From: Robiginitalea myxolifaciens
GTDB lineage: Bacteria > Bacteroidota > Bacteroidia > Flavobacteriales > Flavobacteriaceae
Assembly (NCBI RefSeq): GCF_900115205.1
Contig: NZ_FOYQ01000001.1
Coordinates: 1,577,240-1,641,239, forward strand
Reading direction: 5' to 3'
DNA length: 64,000 nt
Part shown: one piece after another, positions 39,068 to 59,194 of the stretch
Layout: each line of letters opens with the position of its first letter
Position numbering within the stretch: position 1 is the first letter of the stretch
The notes under the pieces: model-generated
The model's database searches: none
What the model saw: only the letters and a program-made list of their open reading frames with translations
What the model was told of the DNA's origin: nothing
Translations under genes and position numbers: made by a program

Positions 39068-39953
39068 AGGCGGGGTAAGGCAGTTCAAACCGATACAGAT
39101 TACCACCCCGGCCATGCGACCGCTCATCGGCCAGATAGAGCAGGGTATTCGTCACAAAACTTATCGATTCGAGCTGAGACCGTGTTTCCAGGTCAATTAC
39201 CCGGGGGGTCTGAGAGAAGCTTCTCTTTCCGAAATCCTCGTAAACGAAGAGTTTGCCGTAGGAAAGCAAAACAAGGCGCTCTCCTGAAGGAGACAAAGTG
39301 GCCCCGGTGATTTGGCAGGTTTCGAAATCCCTGCAGAGCTGTAATTGCGTGATGTGGGACGCTTCATAGGTTCCGGTGCTATCTGGAATACGCCAGACAT
39401 CGGCGGTTCCATCGAACGGATCGGAGCGGTTTTTACCTATGATGTAGAGCATGCCCTGGTAATGGAAAAGGGCCTCCGCATCGAAGCGCATGCTGTCGGA
39501 AGTTGGTGGAAATTCTTCCTGCTCTGGATAGTTAAAATCCAGTCTCTCTGCATCGATTTTATCGCCGGGTTCTATCCTGGGATCCGGGACTTTATAAATC
39601 CTGAGGTTTTTCCGCGAATTGCCATTATTCCCAAAATCACCTATATAGACATTTCCCAGGCTGTCGGCCGCCAGTGCTTCCCAGTCCTTATTTCCTCCTC
39701 CCTTTACTTTAAAGCTGCGAAGTAGCTGACCACTGGTATCTACTTCGAACAGCCGGTCGGGATTGGAGCTGTCTTCGATAACCCATACAGCTGCCTCCCC
39801 GGCAGCCCACATTCCCGATACTTCATTGAGGGATTTGGGAAAATCTGCCACTACTTCCAGTTTACCGTGTTGTGCACAGCCCATGGAGGTGCCCAGCAAA
39901 CACAGGGTTAGCATTTTGAAGGAAAACAGCGTGCACCGAAGCCGGGATCTCAT
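39057..39953 (-). CDS. beta-propeller lipoprotein
   Basis: The 298-aa protein has a lipoprotein signal (TSMGC, cysteine 26) and blade-like repeats such as LNEVSGMWAAGEAAVWVIED, DWEALAADSLGNVYIGDFGNN and FDAEALFHYQGMLYIIGKN, consistent with an SdiA-regulated-like or strictosidine-synthase-like propeller. No catalytic residue is recognisable, so the role is open. The last 11 bp overlap the end of the convergent phosphoesterase gene. Confidence 0.68.
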   Translation of the reverse strand: MRSRLRCTLFSFKMLTLCLLGTSMGCAQHGKLEVVADFPKSLNEVSGMWAAGEAAVWVIEDSSNPDRLFEVDTSGQLLRSFKVKGGGNKDWEALAADSLGNVYIGDFGNNGNSRKNLRIYKVPDPRIEPGDKIDAERLDFNYPEQEEFPPTSDSMRFDAEALFHYQGMLYIIGKNRSDPFDGTADVWRIPDSTGTYEASHITQLQLCRDFETCQITGATLSPSGERLVLLSYGKLFVYEDFGKRSFSQTPRVIDLETRSQLESISFVTNTLLYLADERSHGRGGNLYRFELPYPAFKK

Positions 39954-40053: not shown

Positions 40054-41706
40054 ATGATTGGCATTCTTTCCTTCGTGGGATTTACCCTTCTGGTAGCGGT
40101 AATTTCTTATCTGGCCACACGTAAAACAAATGAGGCAACCTCCGATGGCTATTTCCTGGGAGGAAGAAGCCTGACAGCAGGCGTCATTGCCGGCTCACTA
40201 CTGCTCACCAATTTATCCACTGAGCAAATTGTGGGGCTCAACGGAAGTGCCTATCGCGACGGGCTTTCCGTGATGGCCTGGGAAACCCTCGCTGCGATTA
40301 CCATGGTGGTCACCGCGATGTTCCTCCTGCCCCGCTATCTGAAAGGCGGACTTACCACTGTGCCTCAATTCCTGGCCAAACGATTCGATGTCACTACGAA
40401 AACGATTACCTCAGCCCTGTTTCTCACAGGTTACGTGGTGGTTCTGCTTCCTGTTATCCTGTATTCCGGGTCAGTTGCCATAAGTGGAATGTTTGACGTA
40501 CCCACTTTGTTAGGGGTTTCGGAGTCTGCGGCCATTGTGATATGTATCTGGGGAATCGGAATAATCGGATCGATTTATGCGGTCTTCGGGGGCTTAAAAG
40601 CGGTAGCCGTATCCGATAGTGTCAATGCGGTGGGCTTACTGATCGGCGGGGTAATGATACCCGTATTTGGCTTGATGGCTATAGGGGATGGCAGCGTTAT
40701 GGGCGGTCTGGATACGCTTATGGCTGCCGATCCGAAGCGTTTTGATTCAACGGGGGAATCCTGGCAGGAAGTACCCTTCTCAACAATTTTTACCGGAATG
40801 ATGTTGGTGCAGCTCTTTTACTGGGGGACCAACCAGCAGATCATCCAGCGGGCCCTGGCTGCTAAGAACCTTGCCGAAGGCCAGAAAGGTTTGTTGCTGG
40901 CATCCTTTGTCAAGATTCTGGGTCCGATTATCCTGGTTCTACCCGGGATGATTGCTTATCATTATTTTGACGGAGGCCTGGCCTCGAGTAATATGGCCTA
41001 TCCCGAATTGGTTCGCGCCGTGTTGCCGACCGCCCTGGTCGGATTCTTTGCCGCAGTGCTTTTCGGGGCTATCCTGAGCTCCTTCAACAGTGTCCTGAAC
41101 TCTTCCGTGACCCTTTTTGGAATCGATATTTACAAGCAGCATATCAATAAGGAAGCTTCCGAGGCTACTGTAGTGAAATACGGGAAGATATTTGGTGTGG
41201 TTCTGGCCCTGGCGGCCATGTTCGTGGCCCCGGTAATTGAAAAAGCGGGAAGTATATTCGAATACCTGCAACAAGCCAATGGGATATACAGCATTCCTAT
41301 CCTGACGATTATTGTAGTAGGGTATTTAACCAAAAGGGTGCCTGCTATTGCAGCCAAAGTGGCCATCGTCCTGGGCTCAGGACTCTACATCATAAGCCAG
41401 TTTATCATCGGTCCCTCCCGAGTCGAAAGTGCCCTTGCGGCGGCGGAAGCTGCCGGGATCACTGGAGAAACTGCGCTGCGCCAGGTACAGGCGGACGCCT
41501 ATCCGCATTACCTGCACGTCATGGCAATACTCTTCCTGCTCAATGTGGGAATAATGCTCCTGATTGGTAAACTAAGGCCGAATGCACAACCTTATGAACT
41601 GGAGTATACCCGACAGGTGGAAATTACGCCTTACCGATATATTAAGCCGGTCGGGATCGCCGTAATCGTTATTGTGATTGGGATTTATATTGCGTTTGCA
41701 AAATAA
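40054..41706 (+). CDS. sodium:solute symporter (SSS family)
   Basis: The 550-aa protein has about fourteen membrane helices and family features: GGRSLTAGVIAGSLLLTNLSTEQIVGLNG (from about 36; unwound first helix that binds substrate and sodium), VFGGLKAVAVSDSVNAVG (about 178-195) and YWGTNQQIIQRALAAK. Length and TEQIVG sequence are closest to the sugar-transporting vSGLT/SGLT group, so a sugar or inositol is likely. It is flanked by convergent or divergent genes and appears to be a single unit. Confidence 0.88.
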   Translation: MIGILSFVGFTLLVAVISYLATRKTNEATSDGYFLGGRSLTAGVIAGSLLLTNLSTEQIVGLNGSAYRDGLSVMAWETLAAITMVVTAMFLLPRYLKGGLTTVPQFLAKRFDVTTKTITSALFLTGYVVVLLPVILYSGSVAISGMFDVPTLLGVSESAAIVICIWGIGIIGSIYAVFGGLKAVAVSDSVNAVGLLIGGVMIPVFGLMAIGDGSVMGGLDTLMAADPKRFDSTGESWQEVPFSTIFTGMMLVQLFYWGTNQQIIQRALAAKNLAEGQKGLLLASFVKILGPIILVLPGMIAYHYFDGGLASSNMAYPELVRAVLPTALVGFFAAVLFGAILSSFNSVLNSSVTLFGIDIYKQHINKEASEATVVKYGKIFGVVLALAAMFVAPVIEKAGSIFEYLQQANGIYSIPILTIIVVGYLTKRVPAIAAKVAIVLGSGLYIISQFIIGPSRVESALAAAEAAGITGETALRQVQADAYPHYLHVMAILFLLNVGIMLLIGKLRPNAQPYELEYTRQVEITPYRYIKPVGIAVIVIVIGIYIAFAK

Positions 41707-41714
41707 TACACGGC

Positions 41715-42629
41715 TTACTCGGTCGCTCCCTGCTCCTCTTCTTTGATCGGAAGGAAAATTTCAGCCTTCCATCGGGTGGCATCGCCTCCGAGGGTTGGGT
41801 TGTTGTAGAAAATTTCTACCGGGGTTTCTTCCACCTCAAAGCCTTGCTCTTCGGCATAAGTCAATAAAGCATACCAAGCCCGGTCTGAGGTGATATAATT
41901 GCCGTTGTAGGTAGCTTTCAAAGCCCGGTCCGGAAAAATCCTCTTGTATTGAATCAGCGGGTGTTCGGGTAAGTTGTCCGAACGCACGATTGGAAAGGCA
42001 AATTTGAATTTCAGGCTATCTGTTTGCCGATCCCAATTATCCACGATCACCATAGGCGGGCCGTTCAGTTGCACTTTATTGCTGAGCATTATGTTGCTCA
42101 TAAACTGATAATGGTCCATCATGCCCCCGGCCTTCCCGTGCTGATCACTTTCCAGTTCAACGTAGGCGTAGAAAGTACTGGGCAATTCACCGATTCCCTC
42201 GATATTCACTTTAAACTGATCTACGTGTTCATTGAGTCCGTCCAGATAGTCCGTAAGCATGCGTCGGCTGATCTTTCCAACCGTACTTCCGCCCGTAAGG
42301 ACATCCCAGCGGTTGGCCAGGCTGTGTTCGACATCCCGAATCCCAACACGGACCTGGGTAGTACTGTCGGTAAGCGGCTCCAGGTGCCAGGAGTACTGGT
42401 GAATGGAATCCCCGGCCTGCACCTCCTGTTCAAAGTCCAAAATACTGCCCTTTTCTACCTCAGAGTCCAGCGTACCCGCCGTCTGATGCCAGATTTTCAC
42501 GCTTTGGTTAACAGTGCCCGGAAATGAAGGGGCCTCAAAACGCACGATATAATCATAGGGATAGACAAAGAAATATCCGATTCCTGCTACTAGAACCAAA
42601 ACGACGGTTCCGATAAGAAACTTCTTCAT
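41715..42629 (-). CDS. membrane-anchored SRPBCC and GyrI-like two-domain protein
   Basis: The 304-aa protein has one N-terminal helix (3-25) acting as signal or anchor, a polyketide-cyclase/SRPBCC-like domain (about 30-150: VRFEAPSFPGTVNQSVKIW; TTQVRVGIRDVEHSLANR) and a GyrI-like effector-binding domain (about 155-300: ITSDRAWYALLTYAEEQG). Both folds bind small hydrophobic molecules. It lies 24 bp after the haloperoxidase gene and is probably the last gene of that operon, where it could bind a substrate or product. That role is inference. Confidence 0.72.
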   Translation of the reverse strand: MKKFLIGTVVLVLVAGIGYFFVYPYDYIVRFEAPSFPGTVNQSVKIWHQTAGTLDSEVEKGSILDFEQEVQAGDSIHQYSWHLEPLTDSTTQVRVGIRDVEHSLANRWDVLTGGSTVGKISRRMLTDYLDGLNEHVDQFKVNIEGIGELPSTFYAYVELESDQHGKAGGMMDHYQFMSNIMLSNKVQLNGPPMVIVDNWDRQTDSLKFKFAFPIVRSDNLPEHPLIQYKRIFPDRALKATYNGNYITSDRAWYALLTYAEEQGFEVEETPVEIFYNNPTLGGDATRWKAEIFLPIKEEEQGATE

Positions 42630-42653
42630 GTATTTCGGCTTTTATTTGACCTG

Positions 42654-44021
42654 TTAGTTTGTGTTTTCCGAATTATTTTGAGCCAGGGAGGATTGCTCCT
42701 CCATTTGCAGATTACCTACTACGAAACGTCCCAGATTACGACCCTGGGTAATTCCCACTTCCACGGCTGCGCGATAATGAATGCCTCCATACATGCGGCT
42801 GATAGCAGCTTCCTCAGCGGCGGCGCGGAAGGAAGTAAAGGAACGCACCGGCAACCCGTAGGCAAGTTCGGTATCGTCGTCAAAGGCAAAGTCATCCCCG
42901 AAAAGACTGGTCAGGGCCTCGGCTGCTGCGTTTGAAACTACGCTGTGTCCGCTGGTGTATTCCGGGAATGGGGGCGTTTGCAATACCGGCTTCCAGTTTT
43001 CGTCTATATGTTCATTGATGAGTGTCTCCGGACGGATCAGGTTGGAGCGATATTTCTCGTCCCAGCAACTGATGAATCCATCCATAATGGCAATGGATGT
43101 TTTGGTGTAGGCCTGGACAGTTTGGTCAAAATCCCGATCTGTTTTCCGGCAGGCGATTTTGGTAATTCCGATCCAGTGTGCCCCGGGACTGATTTTTTTG
43201 GTTGCGAACATTAAGTGGCCACGCGTTACCGAAACATAGGGGTTGCAATCCCAGAATTGTGCAATGGCTACCTCTTCAGATTCGTCTCCTTTCGCCGTAA
43301 TTTCATTGGAAATATCATATACTTCCCGGACCTCTTTGTAGAAGGCCGATTCCGGATCCATAGAGAACGGAGGGGGCGGGGTTGGCTTAAACTGATTGGC
43401 CGAATCGATCACAAACGGGCGGATCTCCTTCCAATGGGGTTCGATACCCTCCATGTAGGCCGGAGGGGTTGGTTGCCAGCGCGAAGGATCCGACGTATCC
43501 ACGGTAAATTTGGACATGGTACGGGTTTGCTTGTAGTTGTCCTTATCCATCCAGGCAGCGATAAACTCAGCGACTTCCAGGCCATAGTCTCGTGAAGCCT
43601 CAAAGGTTTGCGCATCTTTTTCTCCCCAGTCCAGATAAAGACTATCCCGCATTGTGGTGAGGCGGTCTTCTGAGAAGATTAAACGCCTTCCCAGGTCCAT
43701 ATGGGCTACCAGGGCTGCGACACGGAAATTGACCGGAGCCTCTGCTTTTGGGGAAGGGATTGCCCCGAGATCCGTAAGCTGACCTGCCAGGGACTTGAGT
43801 TCAGAGTTTTCCTGTGCCATGATTTCATAGGCCGCAATGTTCGGGTAGGCATATACCCGGCTGGCTACCGGTGGGCTGAAGATATCGTGAACCATGATAT
43901 CGGTTAACCGGTCTACTGAGGCGTGAAAGTGCTCCGGGCTAATGTCAATGGGCTCGGGTTCCTTACCGCAGGAAACCAGGAGCACGACGAGTACGATTGT
44001 GATTAATTTGCTGATTTTCAT
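42654..44021 (-). CDS. vanadium-dependent haloperoxidase-like lipoprotein (PAP2 superfamily)
   Basis: The 455-aa protein has a lipoprotein signal (LLVSCG, cysteine 18) and a PAP2-type active site: Lys323 and Arg330 in EKYRSNLIRP, Ser357-Gly358-His359 in YTSGHSVVS, Arg409 and His415 in SRMYGGIHY. The spacings (7 and 6) equal those of the vanadate-binding site of fungal chloroperoxidase. Such enzymes oxidise halides with hydrogen peroxide and halogenate organics; some relatives are phosphatases. It follows three FG-GAP lipoprotein genes by 4 bp and would be anchored in the outer membrane or periplasm. Confidence 0.88.
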   Translation of the reverse strand: MKISKLITIVLVVLLVSCGKEPEPIDISPEHFHASVDRLTDIMVHDIFSPPVASRVYAYPNIAAYEIMAQENSELKSLAGQLTDLGAIPSPKAEAPVNFRVAALVAHMDLGRRLIFSEDRLTTMRDSLYLDWGEKDAQTFEASRDYGLEVAEFIAAWMDKDNYKQTRTMSKFTVDTSDPSRWQPTPPAYMEGIEPHWKEIRPFVIDSANQFKPTPPPPFSMDPESAFYKEVREVYDISNEITAKGDESEEVAIAQFWDCNPYVSVTRGHLMFATKKISPGAHWIGITKIACRKTDRDFDQTVQAYTKTSIAIMDGFISCWDEKYRSNLIRPETLINEHIDENWKPVLQTPPFPEYTSGHSVVSNAAAEALTSLFGDDFAFDDDTELAYGLPVRSFTSFRAAAEEAAISRMYGGIHYRAAVEVGITQGRNLGRFVVGNLQMEEQSSLAQNNSENTN

Positions 44022-44025
44022 CGCT

Positions 44026-47000
44026 TTATTCTTTTGAATTTAATTGGTAGAGTTGTGCTGTGGTGTTGTTAAAAACAGCGAGTAAATGAGGTATTCCATT
44101 TAGCTGTATTATTTCCAGGTCACGCAGGGATTTGTTGGCAAAATCAAGTCCGAGTTCATACCCGAAACTCATTTTGCTTTCTCCCTCAATCAGGACTCCG
44201 GAAAATCCGTCAAATTTACCCTGATAGGGTTTAACGCCAAAATAATTTCCTCCTGCAAGGACCTCCTCCTGGCCATCACCGTCAAAATCATAGACGAGCA
44301 GGCTTGTAACAGGCGATACCTGTATGGCTTCCGGGAAAGGGACAAACTCGAAGCGTCCCTGATTGTTTCGCAGGTAGCCGGATCGCAATTCACTTACCTC
44401 CAGTACGCGGGCCCCTTCCAGTTGCTCAGCCTCAAAAATTTCCTCCAGAGTCTTACCTGCAAATCTCTGGTAGCTCGGGTATTTTTTGCGGAGGAATACC
44501 AGCTGGGAACCCAGATCGTCCAGGCCACTTAGCGGGTAGTAGGCACCTCCCTTATGGGTGGCGAGGATGGGGTCGGTACTCCCGTTACGGTCAAAATCAT
44601 CCAGGTAAATGCGCATCGGATGGGCTGCGCTTGCCGAGAATTTAGAATTGGTGCCCCAATTTCCAAGGATAAAATCCACATCTCCGTCTGCGTCGATGTC
44701 ATGGGCTGCGGCCGCCTGCCAAAGCCCTTGTGGAGCATCCAGGGGTGCCTGCTCAAAGCCTTCTCCGGTATTGCGCAGTAATAAGGGAGCCATCCACTCG
44801 CCAATGATCAACAAGTCGGGTTTACCATCGGCATCGAAATCGGTCCAAAGCGCATCGGTGACCATGCCCAGATCTTCTCCGGCAAAGCCCGAATCGGGTA
44901 CCAGATTACCCTCCTGATTTTCGAGCAGGAATGAGGTGGGAAGCTGCCCAAAACGCCCCGTAATACTCTGGTTCCCGACAAAGACATCCAAGTCCCCATC
45001 CCCGTCGTAATCCATGGGCCTTAGGATGGCGGTGTTTGCAAATCCGGGATCCAGAGGTCTGGCAATAATACCTTCGCCCTTGTTTTGATACAGCATATTC
45101 TGCAGGTTCTCTGAATCGCCGAAATAATCCGATCCGCCGTTACCTATGAGTAATTCGGACATACCATCGCCATCCAGATCGCAGAGTTTCGCATTTATAT
45201 TTTCAGGGATACTATCCCGCAGTACCCGGGTCCAGGGGGAATCATCCCCGGGGCTCAGGCGTTGAAGCCATCCGTCTTCTTGCAGATAAATGGCTGGGGG
45301 AACGCGTTTGGAGCCGCCCAGAAAGAGGTCCTGATCCCCATCGCCGTCAAGGTCGCCTACCGCTGTTGCGGGGCCGCGATCGGCCAGGCTGTAGGGCAGG
45401 AGCTTCTCCCGGTTAAAATCGGTGTAATTGTCCTCCTGGTGTACAAAATCCAGCCCCAGGGAATCGGGGATTCGCTTGAAAATACTATTCGCTGATCGGG
45501 GCGCGCGAACGTAGGGACGCGTATTTTCCGGACTCAGGGTCAGGGTAGTATTTATCCCGGGCTGCTCCACAACCTGGTAGGAACCATCGGGCCAGAGAAT
45601 CTTGAGGGAATCTGCAGCGGCCTCCCCCAATCCAAAATGAAGGATGGGTTCACTGGAAGCCTGGAACCCACGCATCGGAAAGAGTTCCCGGAACAGGGTT
45701 TTACCTTCACTGTACAGGTAGGCTTTGGTGCCGATACCAAATGTGTTTTTTTCCGTGTACTTCAGGCGGAGTTTGAGATAATTACCCGCTCCATTTTTGC
45801 GATTGACCAACACGCTTACCGGGGCATTGAGGTTGCTTACCACAAGGTCCAGGTCCCCATCGTTGTCCAGGTCGCCCCAGGCCGAGGCCCCGGACAGGGA
45901 ACTATCTTTGCGGATCCAGTTGTCACTACGGTCCGTAAAGCCAAAACCGGGTTCCCCCTGGAAGATATAATTATGGGCGTTTCCACTGGGCATCATCTCC
46001 AGTGCCCGCTGGTCTACCAGCCGGGTATTGTCCATTTTGTTGCTGATTTGCTCGCTCGAAATGAAGCGGACAAAATCCAGATCATTCGGACGTTTGGGGA
46101 TGCCGTTGGCTATAAATAAGTCCTGATTCCCATCGAGGTCGTAATCGGCAAAGAGCGCGCTCCAGCTCCAGTCGGTAGCGGCAACCCCGCTCATAAGAGC
46201 GGTCTCTGTAAAACGTCCGTCGGGCTGGTTTACGTAGAGCATATTGCGTGTAAACTGGTAGTAGTAACCGTATTGCTCGATACGCATTTTCTGGGTCTGG
46301 ATGTTGTCGTCTCCTTCTGAGGCTTTCAGAGGGCGTTCATCTTCGGGAAGCATATCCAGGGAGATCAGGTCCGGAAGCCCATCATTGTTGATGTCTGCGG
46401 CATCACTACCCATGGAAAAGCGACTGGTATGGCCAAAATATTCCCGAAGGCTTTCGGAGAAGGTCCCATCCCCATTATTGAGGTAGTAGTAATCGTCTTC
46501 GTGGAAATCATTCCCGATATACAGGTCCGGATAGCCATCCTGATTAAAATCGGATACGGCGATACCCAGGCCGTAGCCGTTGATTCCCCCATATATCCCC
46601 GCAGCTTCGCTCACATCGGTGAATCGGCCGTTGTCGTTTCTCAGGAGCTTGTCTCCTGTTTCATAACTCCGCTGGTTACGCAACGAGGCCTGCCCGTAAC
46701 TGTCCTGCGTGTGCACAGCATGGTTCAGCAGATATAGATCGAGATCGCCGTCCAGATCATAATCAAAGAAGGCGGCATTGGAACTGTAGGAGTCTAAATC
46801 CAGGCCGTATTTTGCGGCGCTTTCGGTAAAGGTCATGTCCCCATTGTTGATGAACAGCTCGTTATGACCGCGAAAGCCGTTGATCCCCACTACGGCGCAG
46901 ACATAGATGTCCAGGAGCCCATCGCCATTTACATCGGCCATGACGCTCCCGGTATTCCAGGTACTGTTTCCCGCAACGCCCGCCTTTTCAGTGATATCTT

Positions 47001-47289
47001 CAAATTCCATATCCCCGAGGTTGCGGTATAAGCGATTGCCAACCTGATTTCCGGAGAGGTATACATCGGCGAGTCCATCACCATCGATATCCCCGATGGC
47101 TACTCCGCCACCGTTATAGAAATACAGGTAATCCAGGATGTTGAGCTCCTCGGTTTCCACCAGTGTATTCTCGAAGGTAATCCCGGTTTTCTCCGGGCTG
47201 GGCTCCTCAAAAAGGTCTCCCCCGCGCTGGCAAGCCCCCAGGAATACAACTGCGAGGCTACAAAGTATATGTAGAGGACGGATCTGCAT
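44026..47289 (-). CDS. FG-GAP/VCBS-repeat lipoprotein with ASPIC/UnbV domain (third of three)
   Basis: The 1087-aa protein has a lipoprotein signal (VVFLGAC, cysteine 20) and many calcium-binding DxDxDG repeats of seven-bladed FG-GAP propellers (for example DIDGDGLADVYL, DVNGDGLLDIYV, DYDLDGDLDLYL). An ASPIC/UnbV domain lies at about 500-590 (NYLKLRLKY; GFQASSEPILHFGLG; ILWPDGS), followed by a second propeller. It starts on the TAATG overlap with its paralogue and stops 4 bp before the haloperoxidase gene. Surface binding of polysaccharide or protein is likely but unproven. Confidence 0.88.
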   Translation of the reverse strand: MQIRPLHILCSLAVVFLGACQRGGDLFEEPSPEKTGITFENTLVETEELNILDYLYFYNGGGVAIGDIDGDGLADVYLSGNQVGNRLYRNLGDMEFEDITEKAGVAGNSTWNTGSVMADVNGDGLLDIYVCAVVGINGFRGHNELFINNGDMTFTESAAKYGLDLDSYSSNAAFFDYDLDGDLDLYLLNHAVHTQDSYGQASLRNQRSYETGDKLLRNDNGRFTDVSEAAGIYGGINGYGLGIAVSDFNQDGYPDLYIGNDFHEDDYYYLNNGDGTFSESLREYFGHTSRFSMGSDAADINNDGLPDLISLDMLPEDERPLKASEGDDNIQTQKMRIEQYGYYYQFTRNMLYVNQPDGRFTETALMSGVAATDWSWSALFADYDLDGNQDLFIANGIPKRPNDLDFVRFISSEQISNKMDNTRLVDQRALEMMPSGNAHNYIFQGEPGFGFTDRSDNWIRKDSSLSGASAWGDLDNDGDLDLVVSNLNAPVSVLVNRKNGAGNYLKLRLKYTEKNTFGIGTKAYLYSEGKTLFRELFPMRGFQASSEPILHFGLGEAAADSLKILWPDGSYQVVEQPGINTTLTLSPENTRPYVRAPRSANSIFKRIPDSLGLDFVHQEDNYTDFNREKLLPYSLADRGPATAVGDLDGDGDQDLFLGGSKRVPPAIYLQEDGWLQRLSPGDDSPWTRVLRDSIPENINAKLCDLDGDGMSELLIGNGGSDYFGDSENLQNMLYQNKGEGIIARPLDPGFANTAILRPMDYDGDGDLDVFVGNQSITGRFGQLPTSFLLENQEGNLVPDSGFAGEDLGMVTDALWTDFDADGKPDLLIIGEWMAPLLLRNTGEGFEQAPLDAPQGLWQAAAAHDIDADGDVDFILGNWGTNSKFSASAAHPMRIYLDDFDRNGSTDPILATHKGGAYYPLSGLDDLGSQLVFLRKKYPSYQRFAGKTLEEIFEAEQLEGARVLEVSELRSGYLRNNQGRFEFVPFPEAIQVSPVTSLLVYDFDGDGQEEVLAGGNYFGVKPYQGKFDGFSGVLIEGESKMSFGYELGLDFANKSLRDLEIIQLNGIPHLLAVFNNTTAQLYQLNSKE

Positions 47290-50200
47290 TACGGAATAAG
47301 GGTGTTTGGTTCGATTTCATAGAGCTTGGGCGCTGCTGAATTAACGGCTGCCAAAATAAAGCGCCGTCCCGAATTATCGCGTAACTCCCTTAGATATTTG
47401 ACCTCTTCCCGGATGGAAAACCCACTGCGATCAAAGGATTGCCACTCAAAGTTCAGGGATCCATCGCCCAGCAAAACATTTCCCAATCCGGCGTCGAGAC
47501 GCGAATATTGCGGCTTGAATTCGAAATTATTCCCACCCAGCACCAAATCGAGGTTGCCATCGGCATTCAGGTCCGTGCAGCTGATATCACAGATACAGGA
47601 GAGTTGAACCCGTGGAGGCAAGGGGACGATCCGGAATTGGCCGTTGCCCTCGTTGACCGCAATCACCGAAGTGGACATGGAGGCTTCTTTGACCAGGGAT
47701 TGCCCGATAATATCGGCTGGGAAGAGCTCTTGAATGGTACGCCGGGCGTAGACCGAAGCTTTCAGGTTTTCCTTTTTTAAGGAGACGATTTGTGCAGTGA
47801 GCTCCTTTTTCTGGTGAAGCGGATAATCTCCCAGGCTATCAGTCAGGGTAACTACTTGCTCCAGGGTCCCGTTATTGTCGTAATCGTTGATCCACATTTT
47901 CATGGGCTTTCCCGGACTTGGCTTGTAATGGAGGTTGGTCCCCTGGTTGCCCAGGATCAAGTCCATATCCCCATCCTTATCTAAGTCGGCTGTAGCGACG
48001 GAGAGCCACCATCCGCTCAGGCTGTCGAGGGAGGAAGGCATGCTGCTCAGGCGGCGTCCGGTATTTCGGTAAATGCCCGGGCTCCCCCAGTCCGATACGG
48101 TAATCAGGTCTTGTCGGCCGTCTCCGTCCATGTCGGCCCAGGTGGCGGAGGTAACCATTCCAGCTTTGGATAGGTCATTACCCCGGCTTTGGGTGGCATC
48201 CCTGAAATTCCCGTTGCCGTCATTCTCCAGGAGGAGGTGGTCTGGGTCTACCCCGTAAACACCAACCACAGAACGCGATCCCAGAAATACATCTATGTCC
48301 CCGTCCTGATCAAAGTCGAGGGGATTCACTGTAGAAACGTTGGTAAAAGCCGAAGGGAGGGAAGCGGGGGAGGTGCTGAAATTACCGGTGCCATCGTTCA
48401 GATAAAGCCTTGGGATATAAGTGCGACCCTGCCCGGCCTGATTTCCTCCTGAACCAACCAGCAAGTCCTGGTCCCCATCTCCGTCAGCATCAAAAAACGC
48501 AGCTGCCGTATCTTCATAACTGGCATCCTGAGTAAAGGCTCCTGTAGCTTTCTCCTGTAATTTTCCGTTACCGCGATGCAGGTAGAGTTTCCCGGCCTGC
48601 CCGGAGGCGCCTCCGAGGTAAAAATCGTCATTGCCATCCCCATTGACATCGGCTACCGCGAGGGCCGGGCCTTCTTGTGAAAGTTTGGAATAGATCAAAC
48701 CTTCATGGTCAAAATCATTGTACGGATCCTCGCTGTGGGGGGCCAGCCCCAGATCAATTTCCCGCATCAGAGGGGACTCCTGCATTCCGGATTGTCCGTT
48801 AGTTGCCCAATTCAAACCGCTTTCATCGGCTTCCCATTGAATGGTCACTTCTTTATTCGCCGCTATATCCCGCAGGGTTTGACGACTGCGATCCGGCCAG
48901 AATACGTGTAAGGAATCCAGTTGTGTAGCACTGCCCAGGCCAAAAGTAATCGCATAATCTACAGAAGACTGAAATCCACGGGACGGGATGAGTTCCTGGA
49001 TAAATACGGATTCCCCGGCATAGGCCTTTACCGTAGCCCCTACGGCAAAAGGATTTTTATCCTTACCCTTCAGGCGTACCCTGAGGTAGTTGTGCTCTTT
49101 TTTGCTATCCGTCTCATTGCGGTAGAGGTGGGCCGGCATATTGACATTATTCACGACCAGGTCCAGATCCCCATCATTATCCAGATCCCCATAGGCAGCG
49201 CCATTAGAGCGGGTAGGCATCTCAAAGCCCCAGTCGGCGTTGGCATTGTCGAAGGTGAGGTCGCCCTTATTGCGGAAGGCGTAATTCGGCTGTGGCTTAA
49301 TGGGCATTTTCTGGATTATGGAATCGATGGATTCCTTTCGCCCGGTAAGTGCCATTTTCTGGATGATCTCATTGGCAAAGAAGTCTACGAAATCCAGGTC
49401 GGTCAGGTCGTGGTTAATCCCATTGGTTACGAAAATATCGCGCATTCCGTCATTGTCCATATCGAACATAAGACCCGCCCAGCTCCAGTCTGTAGCGTGG
49501 ACTCCACTGTAGTAAGCTATTTCGGAATAGGTTCCATTGCCATTGTTGAGCTGCAGGGTGTTTTGAATATACTGGTTCCCAAAATCCTTCCCCTCCTTGA
49601 GTTTATAGACATTGTAGCCCTCGAATTCCATGACCGATTTTACGCGCTGTTCGGCTTCCGGCAACATGTCGGTAATGAAGATATCCTGCTGCCCATCGTT
49701 GTTGATGTCCCCGATATCGATTCCCATGGCCGAAAGACTCAGGTGCCCGGTGCGTTCCATGATCTCTTCGTTGAAGGTGCCATCCTGCTGATTGATGTAG
49801 AGGTAATCCCGCTCGTAGAAATCGTTGGAGACATAAATGTCCGGATAAAAATCCCCATTGAAGTCGGTAACCAAAACGCCGAGGCCAAAGCCGATGAGGC
49901 TCCCGTAGATCCCGGCATCCTCGCTCACATCGGTAAATACCCCATCGTCGTTTCTCAGGAGCATATCCCCGACACCCCGGAAAATATGTGGGACCCCTTC
50001 CCAGTCCTGGGCGCGCACCTTGCGCTGCTCCGCATAACCCAGGCTGCTTACAGGAATATTACTGTTATTCAGGATGTAGGCATCCAGATCCCCATCCAGG
50101 TCGTAATCAAAGAAACTGGCGTGTGTGGTGAAGCCGGTCTCGGCCAGATTGTAATCGCCTGCCGCCTCTGTAAAAGTGAGATCCCCGTTATTGATATACA

Positions 50201-50696
50201 GGTCATTGTCGTGGTTGTTGCCTTCCATGTTGCCGGCGTTACTCACGTAGATATCCAACCAGCCATCGGCGTTGACATCGGCCATGGTTACCCCGGTAGA
50301 CCAGGGCTTAGTCCCCAATACCCCAGCCTGTTCGCTGATATCTTCGAATTTAAAATCTCCCTTGTTGAGGTAGAGGCGATTCTGGACCATATTCCCGGTC
50401 AGGAAGATGTCAGTGAGCCCATCGTTGTTGATGTCTCCCAGGGCAACGCCGCCTCCATTATAGAAATTGCGATACTTAAAGATGTTGAAATCCTTTTGGT
50501 TTTGTATTTGGTTTTCAAAGGTTACCCCGGTACTATCTGGAGGCAGGAGCGTAAATAAAGTAGCTTCCTTTGCAGTGGCATCGTCCTCCGTGCTGGAATC
50601 CCCGCATCCCGTAAGCATCAGGAGTCCGAGGCATAGCCCGGTAAAAAGGAATTGGGACAAAAATTGTTTACTTACTGACATTGTGCTGTATTTCAT
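47289..50696 (-). CDS. FG-GAP/VCBS-repeat lipoprotein with ASPIC/UnbV domain (second of three)
   Basis: The 1135-aa protein has a lipoprotein signal (LMLTGC), an N-terminal propeller with repeats such as DINNDGLTDIFL and DVNADGWLDIYV, an ASPIC/UnbV domain around 535-625 (NYLRVRLKG; GFQSSVDYAITFGLG; VFWPDRS) and a second propeller. The ATG may be 50696 or 50681; either overlaps the end of the upstream paralogue, implying translational coupling. Overall layout and many motifs match the two neighbours, so the three arose by duplication. Confidence 0.88.
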   Translation of the reverse strand: MKYSTMSVSKQFLSQFLFTGLCLGLLMLTGCGDSSTEDDATAKEATLFTLLPPDSTGVTFENQIQNQKDFNIFKYRNFYNGGGVALGDINNDGLTDIFLTGNMVQNRLYLNKGDFKFEDISEQAGVLGTKPWSTGVTMADVNADGWLDIYVSNAGNMEGNNHDNDLYINNGDLTFTEAAGDYNLAETGFTTHASFFDYDLDGDLDAYILNNSNIPVSSLGYAEQRKVRAQDWEGVPHIFRGVGDMLLRNDDGVFTDVSEDAGIYGSLIGFGLGVLVTDFNGDFYPDIYVSNDFYERDYLYINQQDGTFNEEIMERTGHLSLSAMGIDIGDINNDGQQDIFITDMLPEAEQRVKSVMEFEGYNVYKLKEGKDFGNQYIQNTLQLNNGNGTYSEIAYYSGVHATDWSWAGLMFDMDNDGMRDIFVTNGINHDLTDLDFVDFFANEIIQKMALTGRKESIDSIIQKMPIKPQPNYAFRNKGDLTFDNANADWGFEMPTRSNGAAYGDLDNDGDLDLVVNNVNMPAHLYRNETDSKKEHNYLRVRLKGKDKNPFAVGATVKAYAGESVFIQELIPSRGFQSSVDYAITFGLGSATQLDSLHVFWPDRSRQTLRDIAANKEVTIQWEADESGLNWATNGQSGMQESPLMREIDLGLAPHSEDPYNDFDHEGLIYSKLSQEGPALAVADVNGDGNDDFYLGGASGQAGKLYLHRGNGKLQEKATGAFTQDASYEDTAAAFFDADGDGDQDLLVGSGGNQAGQGRTYIPRLYLNDGTGNFSTSPASLPSAFTNVSTVNPLDFDQDGDIDVFLGSRSVVGVYGVDPDHLLLENDGNGNFRDATQSRGNDLSKAGMVTSATWADMDGDGRQDLITVSDWGSPGIYRNTGRRLSSMPSSLDSLSGWWLSVATADLDKDGDMDLILGNQGTNLHYKPSPGKPMKMWINDYDNNGTLEQVVTLTDSLGDYPLHQKKELTAQIVSLKKENLKASVYARRTIQELFPADIIGQSLVKEASMSTSVIAVNEGNGQFRIVPLPPRVQLSCICDISCTDLNADGNLDLVLGGNNFEFKPQYSRLDAGLGNVLLGDGSLNFEWQSFDRSGFSIREEVKYLRELRDNSGRRFILAAVNSAAPKLYEIEPNTLIP

Positions 50697-53600
50697 TCGT
50701 TTGTTCTCTTAGTGTCAGGATAATTGGCGTATCGTCATTGCGTGCAATGATAAAAGCTTTTTTAGTACCGACATTTAAACGGTTCCATTTTCTGGCCGCT
50801 CCGGAAACGGGAGCGATCATTTGCGGAGCCCATTGGAATACTCCTGCCGCACTACCCAGCAATACGGGTCCCTGCAAGGCATCGGGTCGTCCCAATTGGG
50901 TGCTGACCTGGAAATGATTTCCGAGTGGAAGCAGGTCGGCATGCCCATCCTTATTAAAATCCGCGATGCCAAAGTCAAAGACAGGGGCGGCCTGAGTGAT
51001 CGCGGGCAGCGGAATTTTTTTGAAACTGCCCTTCCCGTCGTTCAGGAAAAGACAACTGCGTAGTTCGGTAACTGATTTATAGGTAGCGGCTGCTAACTTT
51101 TCCTTACCCAATAACTCTTCTAGGCTGGCCTCCGCAAAGGCTCTGTAGGTTGGGAAGTTTTTGCGTAAATGCGGCAATTGCTTTACAATTTCATCCCGGG
51201 AGGCAAAAGGGGTCTCCACGCCCTGGTGGTAATAGGTTATCAGGGGCTCTTCCCGGCCATTGTCATCAAAATCACTGCGGTAGAGTTGCAGGGGGAAGGC
51301 TTCAGTTGCTTCCAAGCGGGTGTTGGTTCCCCAATTCCCGGCAACAAAATCTAGATCTCCGTCTCCATCGGCGTCCAGGGTTCGAATGGCATTCCAGAGT
51401 CCGGTTTCTCCCTGGAGCCCATCAGAGGAATCCAGGCGGAATTGCCCGTTGCTCCATCGTAAAATGCCAGGCGCATTCCAATGTCCGACCAGGAGTAATT
51501 CCGGGTGGCTATCCCCATCGAGATCGGCCCATTCCATATCGGTAATGCTCCCAAAGGTATTCAGCCCAGGGGCCAGTTCCCGCGTGGCATCCCTAAAAAC
51601 GCCCTTACCGTCGTTGATAAGCAGAGCGTGCCTGGGACTGGCGCCGAATGCACCGGATTGTGCATCGGCACTTAAGACCAGGTCCAGGTCGCCATCCCGG
51701 TCAAAATCTGCGGCAATCACATCGGAGGCGTTCAGGGTACAATCCGGGAAAGCATCGGATTTTTGTTCGGGCAGACCATTGCGGTTCAGATAGAGCCTTG
51801 GCCTCAGCGGTTCCCCGCCGGTAAATTCATTCCCCCCGCTTACTACGACAAGATCTTTTTGGGCATCCCCGTCAAAGTCTGCAAATAGCGCTGCGGTATC
51901 TTCATGCAACGCAATGGACTGGAACAGGTCTTCCATAACTGGCTCAAAGCTGCCATTAGCCCTTTGCAACAGGAGTTGCGAAGCCTGGTGTTTGGCGCCT
52001 CCCAGGAAAACGTCGTCCCGGCCATCCCCATCAAAATCACCGACCGCCAGGCCAGGCCCTTCGTTAGACTGTGCAAAAGGGATCAGCGGTTCCCGGTCAA
52101 AGTCCAAAGTTGGATTCTCCTGATGCCGGAAGACAAACAGGGAATCGAGCTGCTGCCAGATAGCGCTCTGATCCACCGGATCCGAATTAGTTACTTGTCC
52201 TGCCCCTCCAGGCTTGGCCTCTTGTGCGTCGGCTTCCCGAAGATGGAGTTCGCTTTGTTCCAGGCTTAGCCTGCCTAAGTGTTGAACTTTTCCTCCTGGC
52301 CAGCGAACCGTAACGGAATCTATAGCTTCGAGATTTCCCAGCCCAAAGTGCAGCACGTTGGGTAGGGCAGAAAGGTAGCCCCGGGTAGTATAATTTTCGC
52401 GGTATTGGACGCCATCCCGGGTATAAAGATGGATCTGGGCGCCAATTCCCCGGGTATTGGACTCGGCACCTGATAAGACAACCTTCAGGCTTTTACCGCT
52501 GCTCCCTGTATTCTCAAGAATGGAGACGGGTCGGTCAGTATGGCTAACCACCAGGTCCAGGTCCCCGTCGTTGTCCAGATCGGCGTAGGCAGTGCCCTGG
52601 CTGTAAGTGGCATCCCCGGGGAGCCAGGATTGACTCATGTTTTCGAATGTCAGGTTCCCGGTGTTGCGAAATATGTAATTGGTAGCAATTTTCGGCGGAA
52701 TTTCCTGGGTGAGCGGCATGTCGGGTTGCTTCATGCCGGCATCGATCCGGCGCTGAATGTCATCGTTGGCAATGAAATTCATGTAATCCATATCGTTGGT
52801 AGCCCCTTTGATTCCGTTGCTGATAAAAACATCTTGTTGGCCATCATTATCAAAATCGGCGATAAGACTGCCCCAGGACCATTCCGTACTGGCCAACCCG
52901 CTGAGGAAGGCTATTTCTGAAAAACGCCCGTCTCCCAGGTTTAGCTGCAAGGTGTTTTGCATATACTGCGGCCCGTAGCCATGACCCAGATACTGCTGAT
53001 AGATGGGGAAAGGATATTCCAGGCCCGATGTTTTATACGTAATCAGGTCTTCCGGGAGCATATCCAGGGAAAGGATGTCGGGAAGGCCGTCGTTGTTGAG
53101 GTCGGCTATATCATTTCCCATACTAAAGTGGGAGGTGTGGCCAATTGTGGGAACACGGTTTGTCGTTGTTTCCTCCGGGTTAGTGTCGATTACTTCAAGA
53201 AAGGTTCCATCGCCCTGATTGATATAGAGGTAATCGTTTTCGAAAAAATCATTGCCGACATAGATATCGGGATAACCATCCCCGTTGATGTCCGAGATTC
53301 CCAGGCCCAGGCCGTATCCAGCGCGCCCCTGATAAATTCCGGCGACGGCACTTACATCGGTAAAGGTATTCCCATCGTTGCGCAAGAGGATGTCCCCGGC
53401 CCGGGCATCAAATTCTTTGCGCTGGCTACCCCGGCCATAATTGCGGTTGGGGTGTACAGAATGGTTCAGGAGGAAAACATCGAGGTCCCCATCCAGGTCA
53501 TAGTCAAAAAAGCTGGCTTGTGTAGAAAGGGTCTCCAGATCCAGTCCGTAGGCTGCGGCCATTTCGCGAAATTGAGGAATGCCGTTGGCATCATTGCCCT

Positions 53601-54081
53601 GATTGATATAGAGCAGGTTGCGTCCTTTCAGGGCACGGTATCCACCAGGCTTGCATACATACAGGTCTTCCAGGCCATCCCCATTGACATCGGCGTGGGT
53701 GACTCCGGTAGTCCAAAGCGTATCCTGGGAAATCCCTGCATGTTCGCTGACACGTTCAAAATTTAAATTACCCCGGTTAATATAAAGGGCGTCAGGAGCC
53801 TGATTGGCCACCAGGTAAATATCCGGCAATCCGTCCTGGTTGTAGTCCGCAACAGAGACGCCTCCCCCGTTGTAATAGTACAGGTAGTTCAGGATATTCA
53901 ATTCAGGGGTTTCCTGCAGCTCATTTATAAAGTCGATCCCGGTCCGAGCCGAAGACAGTTCGCGGAACCGGGTGTCTGCTTTTTCTGCACAACCGAAGGG
54001 CACGGTGAGCCCGACGAAAAGCAACGCTATCGCCAATAACCGGCCAGGTGAATTCGGGTATGTAAATTCCTGATTTGTCAT
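50668..54081 (-). CDS. FG-GAP/VCBS-repeat lipoprotein with ASPIC/UnbV domain (first of three)
   Basis: The 1137-aa protein has a lipoprotein signal (TVPFGC, cysteine 31), FG-GAP repeats (DYNQDGLPDIYL, DVNGDGLEDLYV, DYDLDGDLDVFL), an ASPIC/UnbV domain around 530-615 (SLKVVLSGAESNTRGIGAQ; VLHFGLG; VRWPGGK) and a second propeller. ATG 54081 is preferred over an upstream in-frame start at 54120 because it leaves a normal signal peptide. It heads the five-gene unit. A weak -7-like TAATTTTG lies at 54107-54100 on the reverse strand, only 19 bp before the ATG. Confidence 0.88.
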   Translation of the reverse strand: MTNQEFTYPNSPGRLLAIALLFVGLTVPFGCAEKADTRFRELSSARTGIDFINELQETPELNILNYLYYYNGGGVSVADYNQDGLPDIYLVANQAPDALYINRGNLNFERVSEHAGISQDTLWTTGVTHADVNGDGLEDLYVCKPGGYRALKGRNLLYINQGNDANGIPQFREMAAAYGLDLETLSTQASFFDYDLDGDLDVFLLNHSVHPNRNYGRGSQRKEFDARAGDILLRNDGNTFTDVSAVAGIYQGRAGYGLGLGISDINGDGYPDIYVGNDFFENDYLYINQGDGTFLEVIDTNPEETTTNRVPTIGHTSHFSMGNDIADLNNDGLPDILSLDMLPEDLITYKTSGLEYPFPIYQQYLGHGYGPQYMQNTLQLNLGDGRFSEIAFLSGLASTEWSWGSLIADFDNDGQQDVFISNGIKGATNDMDYMNFIANDDIQRRIDAGMKQPDMPLTQEIPPKIATNYIFRNTGNLTFENMSQSWLPGDATYSQGTAYADLDNDGDLDLVVSHTDRPVSILENTGSSGKSLKVVLSGAESNTRGIGAQIHLYTRDGVQYRENYTTRGYLSALPNVLHFGLGNLEAIDSVTVRWPGGKVQHLGRLSLEQSELHLREADAQEAKPGGAGQVTNSDPVDQSAIWQQLDSLFVFRHQENPTLDFDREPLIPFAQSNEGPGLAVGDFDGDGRDDVFLGGAKHQASQLLLQRANGSFEPVMEDLFQSIALHEDTAALFADFDGDAQKDLVVVSGGNEFTGGEPLRPRLYLNRNGLPEQKSDAFPDCTLNASDVIAADFDRDGDLDLVLSADAQSGAFGASPRHALLINDGKGVFRDATRELAPGLNTFGSITDMEWADLDGDSHPELLLVGHWNAPGILRWSNGQFRLDSSDGLQGETGLWNAIRTLDADGDGDLDFVAGNWGTNTRLEATEAFPLQLYRSDFDDNGREEPLITYYHQGVETPFASRDEIVKQLPHLRKNFPTYRAFAEASLEELLGKEKLAAATYKSVTELRSCLFLNDGKGSFKKIPLPAITQAAPVFDFGIADFNKDGHADLLPLGNHFQVSTQLGRPDALQGPVLLGSAAGVFQWAPQMIAPVSGAARKWNRLNVGTKKAFIIARNDDTPIILTLREQTNEIQHNVSK

Positions 54082-54240
54082 ACATGCCTGTGCAGCATGC
54101 AAAATTAAGCATATGGCCAATAAATAAAGGATTCAAGGCCGTATCTGGAGGAAGTATTAGCGGTCTGTTAGCTGCATTAATTTTTCATTAATCATTTCTT
54201 CCTCGAAGCAAGAAACAAATAGTAGCGTTTGCAGGAATCA

Positions 54241-54269
54241 AAAAAGGCCGCTCAACTGAGCGGCCTTTT
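54241..54269. terminator. strong terminator after susD
   Basis: GGCCGCTCA (54246-54254) and TGAGCGGCC (54257-54265) form a perfect 9-bp stem, extended by A/T tracts on both sides. On the reverse strand it lies 39 bp after the susD stop and separates the susCD transcript from the FG-GAP operon. Confidence 0.9.
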
Positions 54270-54307: not shown

Positions 54308-55927
54308 CTAGTATCCAGGATTCTGTTGCAGGTTCGGGTTAGCCAGAAGCTGCGGCAGTGGAATAGGGAAGAGCAGACGACGGGCGTCGGTATCTTCTTT
54401 GAATTCCCAGTTACGCAGGTAACGACCAAAACGAATCATGTTGTTACGGTGCCATCCTTCTGCAAAAAGCTCGCGAGCAAACTCGTCAGCAATAGCATCC
54501 AGGTTAACAGATCCCAGTGGAGTGGCACTACGCAATACACGCAGGTCATTCACCATGGAAGTTGCATCCTGTCCGAGACGGGCCATAGCTTCAGCCTTCA
54601 ACAGATAGGCATCTGCGTAACGAAGCATGATGTTGTGATTCTGGAATCCACCATCGTAACGTGGGTTGTACTTCATAACACGGATACCTGTTTTCTCATC
54701 GTTGTTGATCAGGTTGGCATTTCCGTCTCCGTCAGTAAAGTCACGCTCGAAAGCAAGTGGGTTACCAGGACGATCCTGCAATGGAGTTCCGTCAAGGGCG
54801 TATTGTTGCCCGATCAGGAATCCGTAACCAACGTTAGAACCATCTTCAAATCCTCCGTTGTCGGAAGTTCCGGCAGCTCCGGTGAAAGGCACTCCAATGT
54901 TTGGAACACCACCGCGGCGCTCTTCCTGGTTATCCAGGGGAGCAGCATTCAGGTCACCATCATAACGGTTGTTATTGGCATCTCCTTCAAACAGATCGTA
55001 ATATTCTGCCAAAGTGGAGAACCCGTTCCATCCACCTCCACCGAGACCGGTAGAGTTGTAGTGAAGTCCGTTAAAGATACGGTTACCTACTCCAGTTTCT
55101 GCCCACCAGATGGTTTCGGAATCCGCAGTAGAACGGAAAATATCAAAGTATCCAGCTTGAAGCGCATAGCCATCTGCCTCAATCGCATCTACAAGGCTAA
55201 TAACTTGCTGCAGGTCTGCAGGATCAGGAGTTCCTCCTCCACCTGTCAGTTGATTCACATAGATGTGACGGTTAATTAGAACCTTAGCCTTCATCAGGCG
55301 TGCAGCAGCCTTACTGGCGCGTTTCAGGTCTCCGGTACCAGCAGCAACTGCAGGAAGTCCTGCGATTGCAGCATCAAGGTCGGCCAGGATAAAATCAACA
55401 GCTGCCGCTCCAGTCAGTACAGAAGGTACTTCAGAAGAAGATAACTGCGTATCCCGGAATGGAACTTGTCCGAAGAGATCCAGAATGGTAAACATATTAT
55501 AGGCGCGCAGGAAGCTTGCCTCAGCGGCTACGTCCGCAGAAGCTCCACTACGAGAGTCGAGAATCTGAGAGGCGAGCAGTTGGTTCGCATTGTACTGGTC
55601 AAAAGGAGTAAGGATGTCAGTTTCCTCAAAGCCCCAGCTGTGCTGGTGCAGTTTTCTCCAGCGACCGTTGTCACCCCAGTCAGCCCCACGAGTAGGGATC
55701 AAAAGGGCGTCGGTAGTCACCTCATACAGTGCGTAACGGTTAGCCTGGTCACCCCACTGACCGTATACTTGGCTGTATAACTGGTTCAGTGCAGAGGCTG
55801 GATCTTCAAGACCCTGGAATCCTTCGGTAATGAAGGAATCCGTTTCCTCTATCTCCAGGTCCGTACAGGAACCTAAAGCAAAGGTAGCTGCAAGTGATAA
55901 GAGAGAATATTTAAATAGTCTTTTCAT
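54308..55927 (-). CDS. susD: SusD/RagB family nutrient-binding lipoprotein
   Basis: The 539-aa surface lipoprotein has the lipobox ALGSC (cysteine 21) followed by acidic residues (TDLEIEETD) that act as a surface-export signal in Bacteroidota. It has SusD-type helical repeats (ASFLRAYNMFTILDLFGQVPF, about 142-162) and the C-terminal block RELFAEGWHRNNMIRFGRY. It forms the lid of the SusC pore and captures oligosaccharide. It follows susC by 17 bp. Codons are of the optimised type (GGT, CCA, CGT) unlike nearby genes. No SusE-like gene follows. Confidence 0.93.
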   Translation of the reverse strand: MKRLFKYSLLSLAATFALGSCTDLEIEETDSFITEGFQGLEDPASALNQLYSQVYGQWGDQANRYALYEVTTDALLIPTRGADWGDNGRWRKLHQHSWGFEETDILTPFDQYNANQLLASQILDSRSGASADVAAEASFLRAYNMFTILDLFGQVPFRDTQLSSSEVPSVLTGAAAVDFILADLDAAIAGLPAVAAGTGDLKRASKAAARLMKAKVLINRHIYVNQLTGGGGTPDPADLQQVISLVDAIEADGYALQAGYFDIFRSTADSETIWWAETGVGNRIFNGLHYNSTGLGGGGWNGFSTLAEYYDLFEGDANNNRYDGDLNAAPLDNQEERRGGVPNIGVPFTGAAGTSDNGGFEDGSNVGYGFLIGQQYALDGTPLQDRPGNPLAFERDFTDGDGNANLINNDEKTGIRVMKYNPRYDGGFQNHNIMLRYADAYLLKAEAMARLGQDATSMVNDLRVLRSATPLGSVNLDAIADEFARELFAEGWHRNNMIRFGRYLRNWEFKEDTDARRLLFPIPLPQLLANPNLQQNPGY

Positions 55928-59176: not shown

Positions 59177-59194
59177 CACGAAAACGTTTTCGTG
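59177..59194. promoter_or_regulatory. LacI-family operator
   Basis: CACGAAAACGTTTTCGTG is a perfect 18-bp palindrome with the central CG typical of LacI-family operators, next to a LacI-family gene and upstream of susC. It directly abuts the inverted repeat at 59149-59176. Confidence 0.75.

Follow-up and report, generated by a model that had tools for sequence, protein, structure and literature searches.

A vanadium iodoperoxidase-type enzyme clustered with giant CRTAC1-like lipoproteins beside SusCD sugar loci in Robiginitalea myxolifaciens and other Bacteroidota: a candidate surface module

The Flavobacteriaceae, to which Robiginitalea myxolifaciens belongs, are a largely marine family. The window analysed here is a 64,000-nt stretch of its genome (assembly GCF_900115205.1, contig NZ_FOYQ01000001.1, positions 1,577,240–1,641,239). 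Five genes follow one another on the minus strand at 41715–54081, overlapping or nearly touching (intergenic distances, in order of the genes, of −29, −1, +4 and +24 bp), just as an earlier note on this DNA had placed them. The first three encode large FG-GAP/ASPIC lipoproteins, termed ASPa (50668–54081, 1137 aa), ASPb (47289–50696, 1135 aa) and ASPc (44026–47289, 1087 aa), the last of which lies immediately 5' of the fourth gene, a vanadium haloperoxidase of the Zobellia iodoperoxidase type (42654–44021, 455 aa, lipobox Cys18); the fifth encodes a GyrI-domain protein (41715–42629, 304 aa). The ASPa start was taken to be the ATG at 54081, the mechanical open reading frame beginning upstream of it at a TTG (54120). 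Convergent with the GyrI gene is a Na+/sugar symporter gene of the vSGLT type (40054–41706, plus strand), beyond which lies the gene for lipo298, a lipoprotein of 298 aa without Pfam or NCBIfam match (39057–39953, minus strand). Upstream of the five genes, also on the minus strand, a SusCD pair consists of SusD (54308–55927), with the starch-binding SusD 3ck7 as its best PDB match, and the TonB-dependent transporter SusC (55945–59073). Divergent from SusC, on the plus strand, are genes for a LacI-family regulator (59471–60517), a beta-phosphoglucomutase (60536–61186, TIGR01990 above cut-off) and a GH65 family protein, likely a sugar phosphorylase (61204–63510), with two GH13 genes next, past the window end (L095, a second copy of the window locus). 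These divergent genes and lipo298 had been missing from the earlier note. No Rfam match was obtained in the window at curated thresholds.

Each ASP carries FG-GAP_3 repeats and one central UnbV_ASPIC domain, which scores 68–72 bits against a Pfam cut-off of 23.4 (3/3 proteins), and the three are paralogues with a mutual identity of 39–41%, in keeping with their initial description as related proteins of about 1100 aa. Four ASPIC matches are found in the R. myxolifaciens genome, three of them being ASPa, ASPb and ASPc, and of these it is ASPb that is best conserved in the relatives listed. Loops of the calcium-type pattern DxDxDGxxD number 12 in ASPa and 14 each in ASPb and ASPc; those of ASPb lie at residues 88–512 and 683–1050, flanking the ASPIC domain at 551–618, and an AlphaFold2 model of ASPb (pLDDT 84, from a 39-sequence alignment) is strand-rich on either side of that domain. 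Loops and strand pattern are consistent with the proposed arrangement of two propellers around the ASPIC domain. The best PDB match of the model is cartilage acidic protein 1 (CRTAC1, 9etn, TM 0.71 by target length), which likewise combines FG-GAP repeats with an ASPIC domain; the window ASPs differ from it in being bacterial lipoproteins of double the size whose FG-GAP repeats continue past the ASPIC domain.

The fourth protein has a Pfam PAP2 domain and matches PDB 4CIT over its full length (residues 6–449, 713 bits, 66.8% identity). The vanadate-binding set of the haloperoxidase family comprises K, R, S, G, H, R and H. All seven residues are present in the window enzyme (K323, R330, S357, G358, H359, R409, H415), bearing out the initial claim of a haloperoxidase with its vanadate-site residues, and they are jointly intact in 178/184 distinct peroxidase sequences, the window's included; the six that depart from the set are L237, L239, L242, L248, L250 and L257. 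The 4CIT enzyme, ZgVIPO1 (4CIT/4USZ), was used as a positive control in PMC10427571, where its activity was that of an iodoperoxidase only. Because the closest characterised relative is thus specific, the iodoperoxidase-type identity of the window enzyme becomes firmer, and its assignment by homology to the vanadium haloperoxidases of the ZgVIPO type is well supported. Haloperoxidases of this type are described as most likely releasing diffusible hypohalous acid (PMC11871015). A Zobellia uliginosa gene (L141) is 98.4% identical to 4CIT, and its locus has the order ASPa-ASPb-ASPc-VHPO-GyrI-lipo298, the first five being the same set as in the window. In the accessible parts of the open-licence literature, we found no mention of the ZgVIPO1 gene neighbourhood and no account of the cellular role of the Zobellia iodoperoxidase; another Zobellia iodoperoxidase, vIPO3, was up-regulated on Ascophyllum relative to alginate (PMC9296495). 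Likewise, open-licence PMC texts, as far as accessible, yielded no description of ASPIC or FG-GAP genes together with SusCD and a haloperoxidase.

Clustering of these genes was followed in three sets of loci. The family set came from 149 Flavobacteriaceae genomes, 61 with a peroxidase (threshold E ≤ 1e-20) and 114 with an ASPIC match; 60 of the 68 peroxidase places outside R. myxolifaciens itself were counted, 59 of them with at least 1 kb upstream. Seven of the eight places left out were the weakest matches; among the eight, L114 has no ASP neighbour, and at G037:C134 an ASPIC match lies in the same orientation some 2 kb from the peroxidase. The titled-genome set holds the best 80 of 581 confirmed stretches and overlaps the family set in some genomes, and the out-of-family set consists of 35 hand-chosen places in other Bacteroidota families, 34 of which were counted. 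An FG-GAP/ASPIC gene lies immediately 5' of the peroxidase on the same strand in 48/59 family, 66/78 titled (best 80 of 581) and 16/34 out-of-family loci, at median gaps of 6, 1.5 and 10 bp, respectively, so that conserved clustering across genera, which the earlier note had put forward as its own test, is what the genomes display. Restriction to ASP neighbours of at least 850 aa changes the counts to 46/59, 65/78 (again best 80 of 581) and 15/34, and an ASP within 10 kb upstream is present in 51/59, 71/78 (best 80 of 581) and 22/34 loci. The other eight of the 59 family loci, which lack a same-strand ASP in the 10 kb upstream, count against a functional module. Of these, L045 lies near a contig end, and L093 and L094 have a downstream ASP. 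If chance is put at 0.2% per locus, 48/59 corresponds to p ~1e-118, a figure to be read as a guide only, as related genomes are not independent; chance would produce far less ASP-peroxidase clustering than is seen. Where a locus has at least two typed ASPs (115 loci), the order is a-b-c in 47 and b-c in 38, some of the latter possibly being a-b-c, since many titled loci end 10 kb upstream. Lipobox patterns, in counts that take in cut ORFs and overlapping loci, were detected in 161/206 peroxidases, in 50/75 a-, 127/174 b- and 88/98 c-type ASPs and in 4/99 GyrI proteins; the lipoprotein nature initially assigned to ASPs and peroxidase thus holds for most of them.

The GyrI-like domain of the fifth protein scores 27.4 bits, just 1.4 bits over the Pfam cut-off of 26, and the model of the protein (pLDDT 89, 30-sequence alignment) matches CtaZ and CTR107 with TM-scores by target of 0.75–0.84, so that a GyrI domain is clearly supported by the predicted fold. 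The N-terminal half, without Pfam match, gave weak aromatase/cyclase matches (TM by query 0.24–0.27), which weakly suggest a probable SRPBCC-like half behind the N-terminal hydrophobic helix; of the two ligand-binding folds claimed earlier, the GyrI part stands and the SRPBCC part is left with these faint matches. A close subfamily of the window protein adjoins the peroxidase: GyrI is the next gene 3' of it in 33/60 family and 56/80 titled loci (best 80 of 581), and occurs anywhere in only 2/34 out-of-family loci. Relatives at E ≤ 0.001 exist in 113/149 Flavobacteriaceae genomes; the 36 matches with E below 1e-37 (R. myxolifaciens included) fall into 34 genomes with a peroxidase and two without (G047, G146). 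Relatives of lipo298 are found 3' of GyrI or the peroxidase in many related loci, the window copy being cut off by the symporter gene, and the flank past lipo298 looks syntenic in 33/38 named loci, judged on gene lengths and strands only. Lipo298 is a possible rather than a firm member of the module, as its linkage may be synteny; it may belong to the conserved flank instead.

Flavobacterial maltodextrin loci are laid out with SusC, SusD, LacI, beta-PGM, GH65 and GH13. The window locus has all of these adjacent, SusC/SusD, CAZymes and regulator together making up a SusCD-type locus, and differs in adding a haloperoxidase and FG-GAP/ASPIC lipoproteins behind the SusD terminator. Between LacI and SusC sits a palindrome, CACGAAAACGTTTTCGTG (59177–59194), a predicted LacI-type operator; the palindrome CGAAAACGTTTTCG of this interval recurs as an exact copy in 8/19 other LacI-SusC intervals, L095 being left out of the count. 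Near the module in other genomes lie xylulokinase and xylose isomerase (L035), a GH13 with SusG-type C-terminus (L064), a GH97 (L079), or a GH100-like gene with a PfkB kinase and a trehalase (L163). Relatives of sugar-locus genes (LacI, GH65, beta-PGM, GH13, GH97, XylA or MFS) occur in 34/51 family loci with peroxidase and ASP versus 1/14 ASP-only loci (p = 1e-4), a contrast that somewhat favours the former group, the profiles having been built from peroxidase-locus genes; the ASP-only loci are the fourth ASPIC copy of R. myxolifaciens plus 13 high-scoring ASPIC places and as such not a random sample. By predicted gene content, the module's surroundings are sugar loci, for xylose or for small sugars with a glucose unit, sucrose-type and trehalose genes occurring in some lineages. 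The earlier note pictured a surface machine that might bind a large ligand and oxidise it; the enzymes encoded nearby have small sugars as substrates. Because the sugar genes vary by lineage, the link between sugar and module may be one of regulation or genomic habit rather than of chemistry.

The SusCD pair does lie just upstream, as first described, but it is set apart from ASPa by a 226-bp gap with a strong intrinsic terminator (54240–54269, minus strand) made of a 12-pair GC-rich stem and a T run. A terminator of −15 kcal/mol or stronger is present in 60/63 SusD-to-ASP gaps, the window included, as compared with 64/401 other same-strand gaps, 75/198 convergent gaps and 0/63 shuffled gaps, the controls being simple letter shuffles and the loci partly redundant. 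Because of this strong terminator, a single simple operon of SusCD and the five genes is unlikely, although read-through may occur; nor was SusCD found beside the Zobellia module within the 20 kb read (L057). The Bacteroidota −7 promoter element has the consensus TAnnTTTG. A fitting sequence, TAATTTTG, at 54100–54107 (minus strand) could possibly mark the start of the module's own transcript; as an element common to the regions 5' of ASPs, the motif was discarded, being matched in only 13/58 SusD-ASP gaps. Since many gaps are shorter than 150 bp, leaky termination, yielding a lower level of the module, and a separate promoter are equally likely. SusD-ASP gaps contained no LacI-type palindrome, bar one unrelated palindrome in L040, and a candidate LacI operator at 53229 was rejected, carrying three mismatches and lying inside ASPa.

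Our preferred reading, to which we assign a probability of roughly 40%, is that ASPa-ASPb-ASPc-peroxidase-GyrI form an outer-membrane lipoprotein module with a vanadium iodoperoxidase as its catalyst. The lipoprotein signals suggest membrane anchoring of the ASPs and the peroxidase, which we presume to be surface-exposed. There, the enzyme would convert iodide, perhaps also bromide, and H2O2 to hypohalous acid while the cell feeds on sugars, hypoiodous acid (HOI) being the product from iodide near the sites of sugar uptake, and the three calcium-loaded propeller proteins beside it would bind ligands or provide a scaffold. Anchored through its N-terminal helix, the GyrI-domain protein might bind a small aromatic or halogenated product. 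The cell could benefit by disposing of H2O2 and iodide at algal surfaces, by harming competitors, or both; any purpose of the iodoperoxidase-sugar pairing is a guess. As for a source of H2O2, the neighbour proteins scanned included GMC oxidoreductases at L238 only. Freshwater-named Flavobacterium species, which presumably live in freshwater, carry the module, and iodide may therefore not be its general substrate, being scarce there. Iodine uptake by Arenibacter C-21 is reported to need glucose, oxygen and Ca2+, and an H2O2-generating or iodide-oxidising system can substitute for glucose (PMC5064120). By analogy, these needs would fit an oxidant-driven, calcium-loaded module.

An alternative that we regard as possible, if doubtful, is that the ASPs are surface glycan-binding proteins doing the work of SusE/SusF for SusCD, with the peroxidase as a passenger or as a modifier of the captured glycan. 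The starch-type SusD and the divergent GH65/GH13/LacI operon speak for it, as do peroxidase-free SusCD-ASPIC loci (L096, L098–L110), 12/14 of which resemble the window in having SusC, then a gene or two roughly as long as SusD, then a large ASP; they differ in that the tested sugar set was found in just the one locus mentioned above and in the kind of ASP they encode. In a tree of 83 ASP sequences, including 11 from 10 peroxidase-free loci, the main clades b (28 sequences), c (16) and a (14), each with a support of 1.0, contain none of these 11, which argues against the glycan-binding role. Nine of the 11 group together at a node without support; the ASPs of L106 and L099 fall near distant out-of-family copies linked to peroxidases (L231, L234, L249, L251, L255), which also lie outside the main clades. 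The terminator in 60 of the 63 gaps and the Zobellia module with no SusCD in view point in the same direction. Co-divergence, calculated with fragments left out and species kinship uncorrected, gave mixed signals as to how the module relates to SusCD. Where all five genes are complete (24 loci), the SusC-SusD value is 0.92, and the peroxidase tracks ASPb (0.78) over SusC (0.44) and SusD (0.35), with bootstrap intervals of the differences above zero, which speaks against glycan binding; for ASPc (0.60), the intervals include zero. Over all available loci, the peroxidase gives 0.67 with SusC (35 loci), 0.68 with ASPc (34) and 0.58 with ASPb (45), and ASPb co-diverges strongly with SusC (0.91, 33 loci) and SusD (0.84, 39 loci); ASPb tracking SusC more than the peroxidase favours glycan binding and counts against the module. 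We do not take co-divergence to prove that there are two separate blocks: it looked clear over 28 loci and mixed once fragments were left out.

We consider it unlikely that peroxidase, ASPs and SusCD together import oxidised iodine, which would, by analogy, explain the glucose-, oxygen- and calcium-dependent accumulation in Arenibacter C-21. This strain carries five or more homologues of ZgVIPO (PMC5064120), the module occurs in two other Arenibacter species (L119, L150), the 12–14 calcium-type loops per ASP would suit the Ca2+ requirement, and a review has extracellular oxidation followed by transport of HIO into the cell, with no importer named in its accessible part (PMC12535851). The replaceability of glucose in C-21, however, implies that sugar as such is unneeded, and the symporter next to the module is of the sugar type, with 217 bits to vSGLT versus 58 to the iodide symporter and with close relatives adjoining xylose isomerase and xylulokinase, so that an iodide-related function of this protein was rejected.

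That the PAP2 enzyme is in vivo a surface phosphatase, acting on sugar phosphates or other esters with haloperoxidase activity as an incidental property, appears improbable to us. PAP2 phosphatases and haloperoxidases share the same fold and anion site, and the PAP2 domain common to phosphatases, the sugar context and the freshwater members would be compatible with such a role; against it stands the 713-bit match to an enzyme that serves as an iodoperoxidase standard. Plain synteny of old neighbours without joint function, to which the syntenic-looking flank past lipo298 might point, is very unlikely, as ASP and peroxidase stay adjacent in other families whose flanks differ, and under two gene orders.

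Taken by its gene content, the cluster is a genuine, strongly conserved module in which an iodoperoxidase of known type is joined, next to SusCD sugar loci, by giant lipoproteins resembling CRTAC1. Much more tentatively, it may represent a widespread, hitherto undescribed oxidative surface system of Bacteroidota, in which sugar-linked loci combine a halide-oxidising enzyme with double-propeller lipoproteins loaded with calcium and use them to import oxidised iodine or to protect incoming sugar by hypohalous acid. If true, this would give an orphan crystallised enzyme a place in a cellular machine and in marine iodine cycling. The Zobellia iodoperoxidase, a structural reference of its family, is now given recurring gene partners and a recurring gene order in many Bacteroidota, often next to genes of sugar uptake, and the module makes it possible to test whether, on the surface of common marine bacteria, feeding on carbohydrates is linked with hydrogen peroxide and with the chemistry of iodine.

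In another lineage of loci (L064, L074, L088–L091 and others), the genes for the giant FG-GAP/ASPIC lipoproteins (ASPs, subtypes a to c) and the vanadium haloperoxidase follow a second order, namely ASPb, a protein of ~190 aa, ASPb, ASPa or ASPb, and peroxidase. The ~190-aa protein had no Pfam match, the GyrI-domain gene is missing from these loci, and in several of them GH13, GH97 or MFS genes come after the module. Peroxidase-free loci (L096, L098–L110) present SusC, followed by one or two genes of approximately SusD size and then a large ASP, in 12 of 14 cases; judged by gene order and sizes, we read them as a wider SusC-SusD-ASPIC class. Peroxidase genes occur without ASPs at L067, L070 and L186, all three sharing a similar series of neighbor lengths, and genome G024 carries one copy of this kind together with one ASP-linked copy.

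Beyond the 298-aa lipoprotein gene (lipo298), the window encodes a protein that joins an HD domain with a Pycsar-effector transmembrane domain (34013–35227, minus strand; PF18967, PADLOC PycTM/2TM effector), adjoined by a gene for a ~790-aa protein that gave no match in a Pfam search. Among 38 named lipo298 loci, 33 contain a ~1237-aa gene and a ~397-aa gene that correspond in size and strand, lengths and strands being all that was compared. A penicillin amidase family protein (22473–24920, plus strand) might, as a guess, be an acylase that acts on homoserine lactones or beta-lactams.

Between SusC and the divergent LacI regulator gene lies a perfect 18-bp palindrome (59177–59194). Of 19 other LacI-SusC intervals, 8 contain an identical copy of its 14-bp core. 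A strong terminator follows SusD (54240–54269, minus strand) and was likewise found 3’ of SusD in the SusD-ASP gaps of many loci (60/63, including gaps below 100 bp). This terminator may be a device that keeps the level of SusCD above that of the downstream lipoproteins.
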